Part shown: one piece after another, positions 31,834 to 47,538 of the stretch | How the letters are laid out: each line of letters opens with the position of its first letter | Position numbering within the stretch: position 1 is the stretch's first letter | Assembly (NCBI GenBank): GCA_945874895.1 | Contig: CAMCIC010000006.1 | Location: 124,001-188,000, forward strand | Direction of reading: 5' to 3' | Length of the DNA: 64,000 bases | DNA from: Akkermansia muciniphila | Lineage (GTDB): Bacteria; Verrucomicrobiota; Verrucomicrobiia; Verrucomicrobiales; Akkermansiaceae | The notes under the pieces: model-generated | Told to the model about the DNA's origin: nothing | What the model saw: the letters and a program-made list of their open reading frames with translations, nothing else | Databases searched by the model: none | Position numbers and translations under genes: made by a program

Positions 31834-34800
31834 TCATTGACAAGCCTCGCAAGTCCCGCCGTTCAGCATGGCATCTAGGCTGCAGGCGTTCTTTTCAGCT
31901 TCGGTGTAAGTGAGCTTGGGCTCGCCGGCCATGGTGCCGCGGATTTCCTTGGCGACCGTGGTCGTGGTTTTTTCGATGTTGCTGGCTTGCAGGGCACGCA
32001 GGTAATACGTGGTCTTGAGGCCTTTGCTCCAGGCACGACGATACATGTGGCTGAGGGCCTTGAAGTCGGGCGAGGCGATGAAGAGGTTGACGCTCTGGGC
32101 TTGGTCGATCCACTTTTGACGACGCGCTGCGGCATCGACGATGCACTCGTAACCGACGCCGAACGCGGTTTGGTAGCGGGCCTTGATGTGCTCGGGGATG
32201 GTGGGGATGTCATCGAGTTCGCCGTCGAAATACTTGAGCTGATCGAGCATTTCCTGGTTCCACAGCCCAGCTTTTTTCAAGTCCTTCACGAGGAAGGAAT
32301 TCAGGATGATGAAGTCGCCTGCGAGGTTGGATTTGACGAACAGGTTCTTGTAGTTCGGCTCGATGCAGGGTGTGGTGCCCATGATGTTCGAGATCGTGGC
32401 GGTGGGGGCGATGGCCAGCACGTTCGAGTTGCGCATGCCTTGCTTCGTGATTTTTTCACGCACGAAGGACCAGTCCATCTTACCGCCGCGAGGGGTATCG
32501 ATTTTCACGCCGCGCTCTTGCTCCAGCAGGTCGATGGTGTCCTGAGGCATGAGACCGCGATCCCACTTCGATCCTTTATAACTGGAGTAGGTGCCGCGAT
32601 CGGCAGCGAGGTCGGACGAAGAACTATAGGCATAGTAGGCGATAGCTTCCATGAACTCGTCATTGAATTCCACGGCTGCCTGCGAGCTGAAGGCTAGGCC
32701 TTTTTTGTAGAGCGCGTTTTGCAAGCCCATGACGCCGAGGCCGATGGGGCGGTGGCGCATGTTGGCTGTCTTGGCGGCCTCGGTGGGGTAGAAATTGATG
32801 TCGATCACGCTGTCAAGCGCACGGATGGCCACAGTGATGGTCTCCTTGAGCATCTCGTGATCAATCGTGCCGTCCTCGGTGATATGCGTATCGAGGATGA
32901 CGGAGCCGAGGTTGCAAACAGCGGTCTCTTCCTTGCTCGTGTTGAGTGTAATCTCGGTGCAGAGATTGGACGAGTGGATGACTCCGCAATGATCTTGCGG
33001 TGAGCGCACGTTGCAAGGGTCCTTGAAGGTGATCCATGGATGACCGGTTTCGAAAATCATCTTGAGCATCGATTTCCACAGATCGATCGCGGGAATCTGG
33101 CGCGACCACAGTTTTCCTTCAGCGGCGAGAGCTTCGTATTCTTCGTAGCGTTGCTCGAAGGCTTTGCCGTAAAGGTCGTGTAGGTCAGGAACTTCATTGG
33201 AACGGAACAGCGTCCAGTGTTGGCGGGCCTCCATGCGTTTCATGAACAGGTCGGGAATCCAGTTCGCCGTGTTCATGTCGTGCGTGCGACGGCGTTCGTC
33301 GCCCGTGTTGACCCGCAGTTCGAGGAAATCCTCGATATCGTTGTGCCAGGTTTCCAGATAGGCGCAGCCGGAACCACGGCGTTTGCCACCTTGGTTCACC
33401 GCGACGAGCTGATCGTTATGAAGTTTGAGGAAAGGAATGATGCCCTGTGACTCACCATTGGTGCCCTGAATGTAACCACCGGTTCCGCGCACGGCCGTCC
33501 AAGAACCACCGAGACCGCCTGCCCATTTCGAGAGGTAGGCGTTTTCAGCGATACCACGCTGCATGATGGACTCAATGGAGTCGTCCACTTTGTAAAGGTA
33601 GCAGGACGAGAGCTGGCTGTGCAGCGTGCCGGAATTGAACAAAGTAGGAGTGGAAGAGCAGAAACGACGCCCTTTGTAGAGATTGTAGAGACGCACGACC
33701 CACTGCTCGCGGTTTTCGACTTCGTTTTTGAACAGTCCCATCGCGACGCGCATCCAGAAGAATTGGGGCGTTTCCAAGCGGCGTGGTTTGGCGCCGGTCT
33801 TGTCGATGATGAGATAGCGGTCATACATCGTCTGCACACCGAGGTAGTCGAAATCAAGATCAGCACTGGGGTCCAGCGCATCGGCGAGGATATCGAGATT
33901 GAAGGCTTCGATAAGGTCCGGGTGAATTCGCTTGATGGTGACGCCGTGAGTCAGGTGGCGTCGGAAAGCGTTGCGGTGCGCGGTCTTGATGCCAGCGATG
34001 CCATCGCGCATGATATTCCAGTTGAGCACTTCCTCGTAGATGTAGGTGAGCAGAATCCGACCAGCGAACTTCGCGAAGTCGGCATCCTTTTCGATCATGG
34101 TGCGCGCGTTAAGAATGATGGTTTGTTTCAGGTCGTTGGCGGAAATTTCCGAGCCAATGGAGCGGCGCAGCTCACGCTCGATCTCGTTTTCCGTGAGGCA
34201 GAGATCCAGACCGATCGAAGCGAAGGCGATGCGTTTTTTCAGGTCGGCACCATCCCAGAATGCCGATTGTCCTTCCTCATCAGTGACGACGATCATCGAC
34301 TCCTGATTGATGTCCTCGACGACTTCCTGCTGCTCGCTGCGATAGCGTGCGCGCTCGAAACGATACGCCATGTAGGCGCGCATCGCTTTGAGATATCCGG
34401 CGCGGCCGAGTTCTTCTTCGACCATGTCCTGCACGTCCTCGATGTTTACAAAAGCCTGCTCTCCGGTGCGCACGCGATCGGTGACAGCTTTCGCAATGTC
34501 GTGGGAGGGTTCGGGATTTTCGCGGATGGAAAGAAAGGCCTTGCGAACGGCGATCTCGATCTTGGTCTCTGACCAAGGCACGACATTGCCGTTGCGGCGG
34601 ATCAAGCGCACGGGCATGGTTTGTGGCGCGGTGTTGACGTCCACATCACCGCTGCGTTCGAACGAGCGGCGGAACGCCAGAGACTTGGCGACATCGTAAG
34701 CGTCATTTTCCACAAGGGCTTTTTCGATGAGCAGGTAAAGATCGTTTTCGGAGAGACGAAGACGTCCGCCTTCTTCGATGTTTTTTGTGAGATCTTTTGC

Positions 34801-35097
34801 CACGGAATGGGCTACGGCGGACACAAAAGCGCGGTTGGTTTCGCTAAAGATGCTGTCCTGTTTCGTCTGGCGTGAGATGAGTAGGTCGGTGAGAGCGCTG
34901 CCGATGGTGTCAGCGACCTGAGCGAGGGAGAACTGGGTTTCCGTTGCTCCGGAGGTGACGGTGATTTCCGGATGGGTGGCGTGAAAGTCCTTGCCCAAAA
35001 CCTCGCGCCACGCGAACTGCGTATCGGTGATACTGGCACGGTCTGTGATGACCTTTTTCAGGGCGAGATCTTCTTCTAAGTTAAGGGAGCGATACAT
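31834..35097 (-). CDS. nrdA: Ribonucleoside-diphosphate reductase alpha subunit, long form
   Basis: Reduces ribonucleotides to deoxyribonucleotides. It is 1087 residues, much longer than E. coli NrdA (~760). An ATP-cone regulatory domain is clear at ~162-255 ('VRLIRRNGNVVPWSETK'). A second cone-like region lies at ~268-365, and the first ~110 residues may be a third, degenerate one. The catalytic barrel has 'SSCYLYKVDDSIES' and 'SNLCTEITL' with the radical Cys and Glu, plus 'PTATISNIMG'. The tail ends in a CxxC pair (GGTCEACQ) that regenerates the active site. Chlamydial NrdA has a similar multi-cone N-terminus. Confidence 0.93.
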   Translation of the reverse strand: MYRSLNLEEDLALKKVITDRASITDTQFAWREVLGKDFHATHPEITVTSGATETQFSLAQVADTIGSALTDLLISRQTKQDSIFSETNRAFVSAVAHSVAKDLTKNIEEGGRLRLSENDLYLLIEKALVENDAYDVAKSLAFRRSFERSGDVDVNTAPQTMPVRLIRRNGNVVPWSETKIEIAVRKAFLSIRENPEPSHDIAKAVTDRVRTGEQAFVNIEDVQDMVEEELGRAGYLKAMRAYMAYRFERARYRSEQQEVVEDINQESMIVVTDEEGQSAFWDGADLKKRIAFASIGLDLCLTENEIERELRRSIGSEISANDLKQTIILNARTMIEKDADFAKFAGRILLTYIYEEVLNWNIMRDGIAGIKTAHRNAFRRHLTHGVTIKRIHPDLIEAFNLDILADALDPSADLDFDYLGVQTMYDRYLIIDKTGAKPRRLETPQFFWMRVAMGLFKNEVENREQWVVRLYNLYKGRRFCSSTPTLFNSGTLHSQLSSCYLYKVDDSIESIMQRGIAENAYLSKWAGGLGGSWTAVRGTGGYIQGTNGESQGIIPFLKLHNDQLVAVNQGGKRRGSGCAYLETWHNDIEDFLELRVNTGDERRRTHDMNTANWIPDLFMKRMEARQHWTLFRSNEVPDLHDLYGKAFEQRYEEYEALAAEGKLWSRQIPAIDLWKSMLKMIFETGHPWITFKDPCNVRSPQDHCGVIHSSNLCTEITLNTSKEETAVCNLGSVILDTHITEDGTIDHEMLKETITVAIRALDSVIDINFYPTEAAKTANMRHRPIGLGVMGLQNALYKKGLAFSSQAAVEFNDEFMEAIAYYAYSSSSDLAADRGTYSSYKGSKWDRGLMPQDTIDLLEQERGVKIDTPRGGKMDWSFVREKITKQGMRNSNVLAIAPTATISNIMGTTPCIEPNYKNLFVKSNLAGDFIILNSFLVKDLKKAGLWNQEMLDQLKYFDGELDDIPTIPEHIKARYQTAFGVGYECIVDAAARRQKWIDQAQSVNLFIASPDFKALSHMYRRAWSKGLKTTYYLRALQASNIEKTTTTVAKEIRGTMAGEPKLTYTEAEKNACSLDAMLNGGTCEACQ

Positions 35098-35223
35098 GGT
35101 AATAAGTTGCTTTTTTGAGTTGGAAAAGGAGTGTGGGAGGCAAGTGCGTTTTTTAAGTGCAGAGTGATCAGTGATTTTTCGAAATGAATGGTCGAGATCA
35201 GAAAAGAGTAGGAGAACAATGGC

Positions 35224-35250
35224 GGCAATTTTTGACAGAATTTCGGAATT
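35224..35250. repeat. Left terminal inverted repeat of the GxxExxY cassette
   Basis: Starts GGCAATTTTTGACAG and ends GAATT. It pairs with 35677-35703 at 23 of 27 positions; mismatches are at repeat positions 6, 7, 10 and 22. The inner part (35238-35262) is also a near-perfect palindrome around GGAATTTTCC, so it could form a hairpin just past the stop codon. Confidence 0.6.
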
Positions 35251-35271
35251 TTCCGAATTTCTGATATTGTT

Positions 35272-35670
35272 TTATTTGGTTTTTTTCGGGTGAAGGTCTT
35301 TCTTTTTGAATGGGAGTGATTCGGTGCCAAAATTAAGGAGCAGACCCTGATTGACTCCGGTGGCTTTGAGGTAGTTGACAAGTTGCACTTTGTGAGCAGG
35401 CATGATGGTTGAGACAGCTTTGAGCTCGATGATCAGCTCTTTTTCCAATGCCATATCCGCTTCGAAGTCACCGACGAGGCGGCCTTGGTAAAAGACGGAA
35501 AGTTTGACGTATTGTTCGAAAGCGAGTTCATGTTCTGCAAATTCAAGAGCTGGCGCATTTTGATAGGCACTCTCTTGAAATCCATGTCCGCGCGCGCGGT
35601 GAACTGTCATCGCAATACCGATCACAGTTCCCGCCAAGTCGTATGCGTTCTTACCTATCATTCGGTTCAT
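35272..35670 (-). CDS. GxxExxY protein, PD-(D/E)XK nuclease-like
   Basis: A 132-residue protein of the GxxExxY family (Pfam PDDEXK_3). The name motif is at 30-36 (GFQESAY). Nuclease-like residues are D72, E82-L-K84 and a downstream Q96 in 'HKVQLVNYL', the order expected for a PD-(D/E)XK core. The function of the family is not known. It interrupts the nrdB-nrdA operon and is bounded by inverted repeats. The start at 35670 has GGAAAA just upstream; a second ATG lies at codon 4. DNA is AT-richer around it than in the neighbours. Confidence 0.85.
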   Translation of the reverse strand: MNRMIGKNAYDLAGTVIGIAMTVHRARGHGFQESAYQNAPALEFAEHELAFEQYVKLSVFYQGRLVGDFEADMALEKELIIELKAVSTIMPAHKVQLVNYLKATGVNQGLLLNFGTESLPFKKKDLHPKKTK

Positions 35671-35676
35671 TTTTCC

Positions 35677-35703
35677 AATTCTGAAATTCTGTCGAATTTT
35701 GCC
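35677..35703. repeat. Right terminal inverted repeat of the GxxExxY cassette
   Basis: Starts AATTCTGAAATTCTGTC and ends TTTTGCC. Its reverse complement matches 35224-35250 at 23 of 27 positions. It lies between the nrdB stop (35730) and the GxxExxY start (35670). Confidence 0.6.
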
Positions 35704-35729: not shown

Positions 35730-36833
35730 TTACAGCTCATCATCGTCGATGTGGCCGAGGGCGGAGGCTTTTTGGTATTCGGTGACGCGACCTTCGAAGA
35801 AGTTCTGCTCTTTTTTCATGTCCATCATTTCCGCCAACCATGGGAAAGGATTGGAGACGCTCTCGTTAAGCGGAGCGAGACCGCAGGAGGCGAGTCGGCG
35901 ATCGGCAATGTAATCGATGTAATCCTCAAATTCATCGGCGCTGAGACCGATCGATGCCACTGGCAGGCAGTCGCGGATGAATTTTTTCTCAAGAGAAATG
36001 CCCTCTGCCATCGTGGCGCGCAGGTCCTCGCGGAACTCCTCGGTCCAGATGTCGGGATTTTCATCGACAAGGTCCATGAGCAGGTTGCGGAACACTTCGA
36101 TGTGGTTGGATTCATCGCGCAGGGTATAGCGGAACATCTGGCCGATACCGGGAAATTTGTTTTGGCGATAGAGGCTGAGAATCATGCCGAAGAGTCCGTA
36201 GAACTGCGTGCCTTCCATCACTTGGCCGAAAAGGAAAATGTTTTTTGCAAGAGCCTGCTTGTTGGCGGTAACGGTGAGATCGATGTCACGACGTAGCTTG
36301 CGGCTATTGGAGACGACGAAATGATTCTTCTCGGTGATGGTGGGAATGTCCTCAAACATGGCTTCACACTCATGCGGATTGAGCCCCAGTGAGGAAATCA
36401 TGTAAACGAGAGAGTCGGCATGAATGTTTTCCTCGTGAGCGTGGCGCCCGAGCACGAGCTTGAGTTCGGGAGCTGTCATCACTTCGCGAACGACGTGGAG
36501 GATGTTGTCGCCGACGATGCCTTCTGCTGCCGAAAAGTAGCCAATCCCCATCTTGATGATCCAGCGCTCCACATCCGAGATGTCATTGGAGCGCCATTGC
36601 TCCACGTCCTTTTGCATCGGGATGTCCTCTGGTTCCCAATGGTTGTTCTTCATGGTCTTGTAGAGGTCGTAGGCCCAAGAGTATTTCAGCGGAAGGATGT
36701 TGAAGAACATCGTTTCACGACCGTTGATCACTTTTTTCGCTGCATAGGCAGCTTCGGCTTTTTCTTTATCAAGAATGAATGTGCGCTGGCCCAGCGTGTA
36801 GCTGGTGGTATGGGAAGAGGTTGCGGTGCTCAT
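35730..36833 (-). CDS. nrdB: Ribonucleotide reductase beta subunit, class Ic-like
   Basis: Holds the metal cofactor that starts the radical chain for NrdA. It is 367 residues. The six metal ligands can be placed: E104, E135, H138, E207, E241 and H244 (four Glu, two His). The first is Glu where E. coli has Asp. Four residues after H138, where E. coli has the radical Tyr and Chlamydia Phe, there is L142. The overall sequence ('RQNKFPGIGQMFRYTLRDE', 'NPFPWLAEMMDM') closely resembles the chlamydial Mn/Fe protein as I remember it. The start at 36833 is chosen over an ATG 42 bp upstream. Confidence 0.93.
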   Translation of the reverse strand: MSTATSSHTTSYTLGQRTFILDKEKAEAAYAAKKVINGRETMFFNILPLKYSWAYDLYKTMKNNHWEPEDIPMQKDVEQWRSNDISDVERWIIKMGIGYFSAAEGIVGDNILHVVREVMTAPELKLVLGRHAHEENIHADSLVYMISSLGLNPHECEAMFEDIPTITEKNHFVVSNSRKLRRDIDLTVTANKQALAKNIFLFGQVMEGTQFYGLFGMILSLYRQNKFPGIGQMFRYTLRDESNHIEVFRNLLMDLVDENPDIWTEEFREDLRATMAEGISLEKKFIRDCLPVASIGLSADEFEDYIDYIADRRLASCGLAPLNESVSNPFPWLAEMMDMKKEQNFFEGRVTEYQKASALGHIDDDEL

Positions 36834-37275
36834 AATGGTCAAATTTGGAGAAGAGGGAACGGCAGCAAAACACATCAGAAGATCGCTTCAGATGCTTCAT
36901 TTGCAGCGCAAACAAAACTAGAGCAGGTTCGATACCAGGTCAAAGGAATTTTGCTCATGTGGTATCAACAAATTATTCACAATACCATATGTTGTGTATT
37001 CGGTTTTGTATTTGCAATGTAAAATCCCACCACCGCAAGCATCTTTGCGCTCTGGAGTGGAGGATCTAGGGGTAGAAAAAAAATTGCATACCCTCTGATC
37101 TAACAGCACTGAAGCGATTTTCTAAAAAATTCCCGTTGATGCCATGGGTGAGATGCTGTGCAAGAGCCATGGATGGCTGTGGAACATTGATTTTTCTTAG
37201 TGGAATAAAATTTCAAAAAATACGGCGATGAGAAAAATCCCATCGCCGTTGAGGTCAAATGCCGTTTGTGATCCG
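36834..37275. other. 442-bp intergenic region upstream of nrdB
   Basis: The promoter of the nrdB-nrdA operon must lie here. Two overlapping inverted repeats are seen: ATGTGGTAT (36957-36965) with ATACCATAT (36982-36990), and CACAA (36978-36982) with TTGTG (36992-36996). The second resembles an NrdR box but its spacer is 9 bp, not 4. The right end holds the terminator of the M42 peptidase gene. No gene was found. Confidence 0.6.
37214..37249 (-). terminator. Terminator after the M42 peptidase gene
   Basis: A perfect 9-bp stem (ACGGCGATG at 37222-37230 with CATCGCCGT at 37241-37249) and a 10-base loop. On the minus strand it is followed by A then six T. It lies 27 bp past the stop codon. Confidence 0.85.
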
Positions 37276-47481: not shown

Positions 47482-47538
47482 GAGCGCGGACTTCAGTCCG
47501 CTTTTGCGTGAGAGGGAAGCGGACTGAAGTCAGCGCTC
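47482..47538. repeat. REPIN-like inverted pair of short palindromes
   Basis: Two 22-bp arms (47482-47503 and 47517-47538) are inverted copies with one mismatch, separated by 13 bp. Each arm contains its own small palindrome, GCGGACT-TC-AGTCCGC. This two-palindromes-in-opposite-orientation layout is that of a REPIN/BIME element. It lies between the divergent tilS and HIT genes, directly upstream of tilS. Confidence 0.7.

Follow-up and report, generated by a model that had tools for sequence, protein, structure and literature searches.

Homing endonuclease cassettes, which include PD-(D/E)XK ones, are among the described systems that come closest to the element analysed here. Further systems for comparison are the REPIN-RAYT (TnpA-REP) systems (PMC3116915, PMC8266576, PMC8049555), the S23/IVP intervening sequences (IVS) of rRNA (PMC4990558) and the rRNA insertions of CPR bacteria (PMC11270868). 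GxxExxY and S23/IVP are both abundant protein families without a settled function. Earlier papers report IVP genes within cas loci (PMC3936711) and a GxxExxY gene next to a CRISPR reverse transcriptase (PMC8934634); both links may be mere insertions. In this study, we analysed a GxxExxY gene that lies between inverted repeats in a stretch of 64,000 nucleotides of Akkermansia muciniphila (the window), together with its counterparts in other genomes. We consider it about 70% probable that this unit is a REPIN-RAYT-like or homing-like mobile cassette, whose nuclease would act on its own ends.

The cassette between nrdB and nrdA

The gene (35272..35670, minus strand) encodes a protein of 132 amino acids, which in a profile search matched PF13366 (PDDEXK_3, E=2e-33) and NCBIfam TIGR04256 (GxxExxY, E=1.6e-34). 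The profile match and the G-x-x-E-x-x-Y and D...E-x-K motifs, all of which are present, agree on its membership of the GxxExxY/PDDEXK_3 family. The PD-(D/E)XK core residues named in the initial annotation (D72, E82-x-K84 and Q96) were confirmed: in the family alignment G30, E33, Y36, D72, E82, K84 and Q96 (window numbering) are invariant or nearly so. Residue 13 is A. The ratio dN/dS of the GxxExxY protein is 0.035-0.11, which indicates purifying selection and, together with the invariant catalytic residues, shows that the protein is in use; such low ratios suggest that cassettes can be long-lived. The host genome (2.9 Mb, 26 contigs) holds one PF13366 gene. Defence-system models did not match the window protein, and no relatives of solved structure were found when sought by sequence.

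The gene is the only ORF between two inverted arms, and PF13366 is the sole profile match of the element. The 5' arm (35677..35703, minus strand) reads GGCAAAATTCGACAGAATTTCAGAATT on the minus strand and contains the unit (A)CAGAATT, and the 3' arm (35224..35250, plus strand) reads GGCAATTTTTGACAGAATTTCGGAATT inward and carries a T-tract on its outer side. As first described, the arms are 27 nt long, pair at 23 of 27 positions (85%) and share an unbroken 11-nt core, GACAGAATTTC; when the two 250-nt flanks were shuffled 400 times, no shuffle reached their score. Their distances from the gene are 6 nt before the start codon and 21 nt past the stop, each one less than the annotated 7 and 22. On the nrdA side the 3' arm is extended by a palindrome, CAGAATTTCGGAATTTTCCGAATTTCTG (35237..35264; fold z -3.75). 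The cassette, a type of about 480-540 bp, does split the nrdB-nrdA operon, with nrdB (35730..36875, minus strand) upstream and nrdA (31834..35097, minus strand) downstream on the same strand. Elsewhere in the window, a strong palindrome, GAGCGCGGACTTCAGTCCGCTT / AAGCGGACTGAAGTCAGCGCTC, lies in an intergenic gap (47482-47538), and might be a terminator or another dispersed repeat.

Array ends and their match with the protein

The recurrence of the 27-bp ends around other GxxExxY genes, on which the idea of a cassette depends, was borne out for the type of end and not for its sequence. In 57 related genomes, 45 of which carry PF13366 genes, 90 GxxExxY loci were read, and inverted-repeat ends (flanking score >=12) were present at 60 of the 90, versus 0 of 73 equally large mock places taken from these loci and 0 of 90 shuffles. 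About a third of the GxxExxY genes had no clear ends by this ungapped method. The independent scan was confined to the clade of the window protein, as the wider GxxExxY alignment is too diverse; it gave 80 loci from Verrucomicrobia, Bacteroidota, Planctomycetes, Chloroflexi, Proteobacteria, Spirochaetes and others. Paired ends were found at 57 of 77 of these loci (2/77 mock), and at least two inward ACA[GA][GA]AT units at 58 of 77 (2/77 mock). In this clade the units follow each other with a period of 9 nt (103 of 128 spacings), and the T-tract (TTTT) is on the outer side. Among the relatives, each end is an array of units of 7-8 nt that recur every 9-10 nt, the two arrays of an element being inverted; the sequence of the unit varies among elements (CACAGAT, CGCAGAG, CACTGAG, ACGGATT, ACAGGATT, ACAGAATT and others). 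The conserved feature of the ends is thus a repeated short unit, specific to the protein, and no fixed 27-mer. Four elements of Prevotella and relatives (L272, L292, L294, L301) belong to the window protein clade and have another unit family (ACATAA, ACTATAGA), whose arrays are often split into several blocks.

Array similarity tracks protein similarity even where the two members of a pair come from different genomes and sites (Mantel r=0.27, 0 of 2000 permutations), whereas for the DNA further out the relation is weak (r=0.09, 53 of 2000). Within the window clade, whether the unit is ACAG-A-ATT or ACAG-G-ATT is correctly predicted from residue 13 (A and similar, or T/S) in 70 of 73 elements. 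This residue changes in six of seven independent unit switches, versus 4 of 25 equally distant control pairs. Because it was chosen out of about 125 alignment columns, the rule was retested on new loci. The first test gave 30 correct predictions out of 32, nearly all in one class and hence weakly informative, and therefore a balanced second set was drawn, in which all 14 predictions were right (9 T, 5 A; loci counted regardless of relatedness); both tests pooled give 44 of 46 elements. The strongest indication that the unit would be read by the protein itself is, in our view, the residue-13 prediction. Copies of the end motif are also commoner in congeners with a matching protein. The one clear exception is G002, in which unit copies remain though the window protein clade is absent.

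Array ends are also found in a second family. The four-helix S23/IVP family (PF05635) occurs in 45 of the 57 related genomes, and 45 of 63 S23/IVP loci, versus 1 of 58 mock places, carry array ends of like design with other units. We read the S23/IVP genes as a second, independent cassette class in the gaps that GxxExxY cassettes use. One genome has an unusual cluster of at least four S23/IVP genes in a stretch of about 12 kb (L136, G039:C1:2566000-2585000).

Occupancy and exchange in operon gaps

The elements repeatedly occupy the short spaces that separate co-directional genes, in many cases genes of one pathway, in operons that are essential to the host. In the relatives, where gene names were assigned from translations, the filled gaps are nrdB-nrdA, nuoK-nuoL, nuoH-nuoI, nuoF-nuoG, nuoG-nuoH, gltB-gltD, pheS-pheT, hisS-aspS, metK-ahcY and cysD-cysN; in other phyla they are argF-argG, menB-menC, menC-menE, fabD-fabG and the gap between a LigT-family gene and recA. 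The family is thus found inside unrelated operons, as had been supposed. By crude ORF calls, both neighbours are co-directional for 98 of 125 elements versus 20 of 51 window genes, and in the independent set of many phyla the count is 48 of 63. Across genera, the proteins group by insertion gap (18 changes, 38.4 with shuffled labels), which indicates that much of the inheritance is vertical or site-faithful; a cassette would either stay in its gap for a long time or re-enter it, and this leaves room for a homing route.

The same gap can hold different cassettes. If relatives always kept the same gene between nrdB and nrdA, this would speak against a mobile cassette, and they do not: in ten congeners the gap holds three unrelated cassettes, namely a ACAGAATT cassette (three genomes), an ACGGATT GxxExxY cassette (three) and an S23 cassette (four). 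On the NrdB+NrdA tree these types require five changes, the same as with shuffled labels, on a tree with two firmly supported branches. The motif GAGTGATCAGTGA, present in the window at 35162..35174 (plus strand), is found at the matching place in G009 and G002, where it belongs to the 3' array of the S23 cassette, and in G006, where it lies beyond the GxxExxY cassette. Because the window copy sits where the S23 array lies in G009 and G002, it is probably a relic of an earlier S23/IVP cassette, which probably preceded the GxxExxY cassette in this gap.

Gaps without a cassette were also observed. In a second genus the pheS-pheT gap is filled in at least 12 species and empty in G066 (a 14-nt gap), G080 and G062; in G079 it contains a single half array, and in several further species ORF-less elements with other units. 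A similar range of states (filled, empty, half-array, ORF-less) was found in the gltB-gltD and metK-ahcY gaps. Single and paired ORF-less copies of cassette ends are dispersed in the genomes, and 49 of 55 dispersed end-motif copies lie outside ORFs (about 27% expected). The window's own genome has the end motif a third time, as half of an ORF-less solo element of about 135 bp. As separate observations, the gltB-gltD gaps of L175 (G005) and L180 (G000) hold ORF-less palindromic mini-elements of a AAGACATAAGAC-type unit, which is the unit of the S23 cassette at metK-ahcY in the same genus, and two near-identical ACCACGGATT mini-elements in G007:C62 (L236 and L245) lie about 136 bp apart as a tandem duplication.

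One cassette was found within a gene. In Anaerolineales H5_CFX7 (L322:2300-3060) a GxxExxY cassette breaks up a type ISP restriction-modification gene, whose homologues are single ORFs; the T-tract of the cassette plus TGA supplies the stop. The break falls between the methylase and specificity domains, possibly leaving two functional halves. The initial suggestion of a small mobile cassette of 480 bp thus gains from the filled, empty and ORF-less gaps, the swapped cassettes and the intragenic copy, whereas the clean target duplications that would go with it were not found: neither target-site duplications nor exact junctions were recovered in congeneric empty gaps, whose flanks are too diverged for reading at the base level. 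Near-identical full copies within one genome were not seen, most genomes having few copies, and viral and phage copies of the cassette were not found.

Possible mechanism and comparison with known systems

Several other explanations of these loci were considered. Short AT-rich inverted repeats are generally common, and the window gene might be an ordinary operon gene with incidental repeats; the window shuffles (0/400) and two data sets with mock rates close to zero refute this, and we give it practically no weight. The arms might instead pair in the operon transcript, so that RNase III, or GxxExxY acting as an RNase, excises the cassette or tunes nrdB against nrdA. The S23 IVS is cut out of rRNA by RNase III (PMC4990558), the arms are complementary, and the gaps that hold the cassettes are transcribed, with cassette and operon running in one direction. 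However, selection for RNA pairing should leave an excess of G-U among arm mismatches, and none was observed (G-U versus A-C types 43 vs 66, 31 vs 35 and 38 vs 37), so that RNA pairing is probably not what maintains the arms. Many half arrays, moreover, have no partner, and the window gap has no Rfam match at E<=1. We regard such a role in the transcript as quite improbable.

It is unlikely, too, that GxxExxY is a domesticated regulator, which binds the arrays to control itself and the host operon, with arrays that spread by other means (e.g., a lost transposase) and are now inherited vertically. Strong purifying selection, site-faithful protein clades and arrays matched to the protein would fit a regulator; the patchy presence, the swapping of cassettes in one gap among congeners, the empty gaps, the invariant catalytic residues and the insertion that disrupts a restriction-modification gene do not. 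Somewhat less doubtful, and itself a special case of mobility, is a site-specific homing endonuclease, of which each clade would cut one cassette-less gap and spread by break repair with flanking homology, the arrays being secondary. The grouping of proteins by gap across genera and the filling of one gap in separate host clades speak for it, yet the protein at different sites is tracked by the array unit and not by the gap, and ORF-less copies that have the same ends occur at unrelated sites.

A mobile cassette acting on its own ends could work as follows. The GxxExxY protein would bind the units in its own ends as DNA, and its nuclease would cut or join at the arrays, by which the cassette ends would be copied into operon gaps. 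The PD-(D/E)XK enzyme would take the place of a HUH transposase or of a known homing nuclease, and ORF-less copies and half arrays would be mobilised in trans. Insertion into an operon gap might do little harm, and the cassette gene would be transcribed by the host operon. It is tempting to go further and propose a transposable or homing DNA with a 130-aa PD-(D/E)XK protein as its only enzyme, in which residue 13 specifies base 5 of the unit, which moves itself and its ORF-less copies, and beside which S23 founded a second class independently; this tentative proposal we place just short of even odds. The sequence data suggest that GxxExxY and S23/IVP cassettes form an undescribed class of miniature mobile DNA. 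Such ends were not found described in the open-access literature; most subscription papers lay outside this search, and an earlier description is possible. Should GxxExxY and S23/IVP prove to be the core genes of mini mobile cassettes, what they do could be tested directly, and finding them in an operon would no longer point to a shared pathway. The match between unit and protein would also amount to a recognition code that can be read, in a nuclease-like protein of very small size.

Compared with known systems, the GxxExxY family has a weak profile similarity to Cas4/RecB-like PD-(D/E)XK nucleases (Cas_Cas4 in 27 of 62 members, best E 0.007), but this match is far weaker than that to PF13366, allows no confident family assignment and concerns proteins of another context. 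Like IS elements and MITEs, the cassettes combine an ORF between inverted repeats with ORF-less derivatives; their ends, however, are repeated units, and no target duplication was seen. The single PF13366 ORF, with no DDE, HUH, tyrosine or serine recombinase, sets the window element apart from insertion sequences. With homing cassettes it shares a small nuclease gene that recurs at conserved sites and is exchangeable there with other cassettes, but it has its own inverted arrays and usually lies outside coding sequence. An intron- or intein-borne homing endonuclease was rejected, as there is neither an Rfam match (E<=1) nor, by profile search, an intein domain.

The rRNA IVS are similar in form: they, too, lie in transcribed DNA, measure about 0.4-0.7 kb and end in complementary sequences. 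IVP genes recur at shared sites, and the nrd gap holds S23 cassettes of this kind in some congeners and GxxExxY cassettes in others. The GxxExxY protein is nevertheless unrelated to S23/IVP, its cassettes lie in operon gaps and not in rRNA, and their arms carry no sign of selection for RNA pairing. The window element, in nrdB-nrdA with PF13366, has no rRNA site and no S23/IVP protein, and is thus not an rRNA IVS. Nor is it a REPIN-RAYT system in the strict sense, since the defining Y1/HUH TnpA-REP transposase is absent and PF13366 is the sole match. RAYT carries a HUH/Y1 transposase where the cassette has a PD-(D/E)XK protein, REPs are GTAG-tagged palindromes where the cassette ends are tandem 8-nt units plus a T-tract, and the cassette occupies operon gaps. 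The likeness to REPIN-RAYT lies in a low-copy, conserved nuclease gene between inverted short repeats that are matched to its protein (here by statistics), in intergenic repeats, paired or single, that lack an ORF, and in long vertical persistence.
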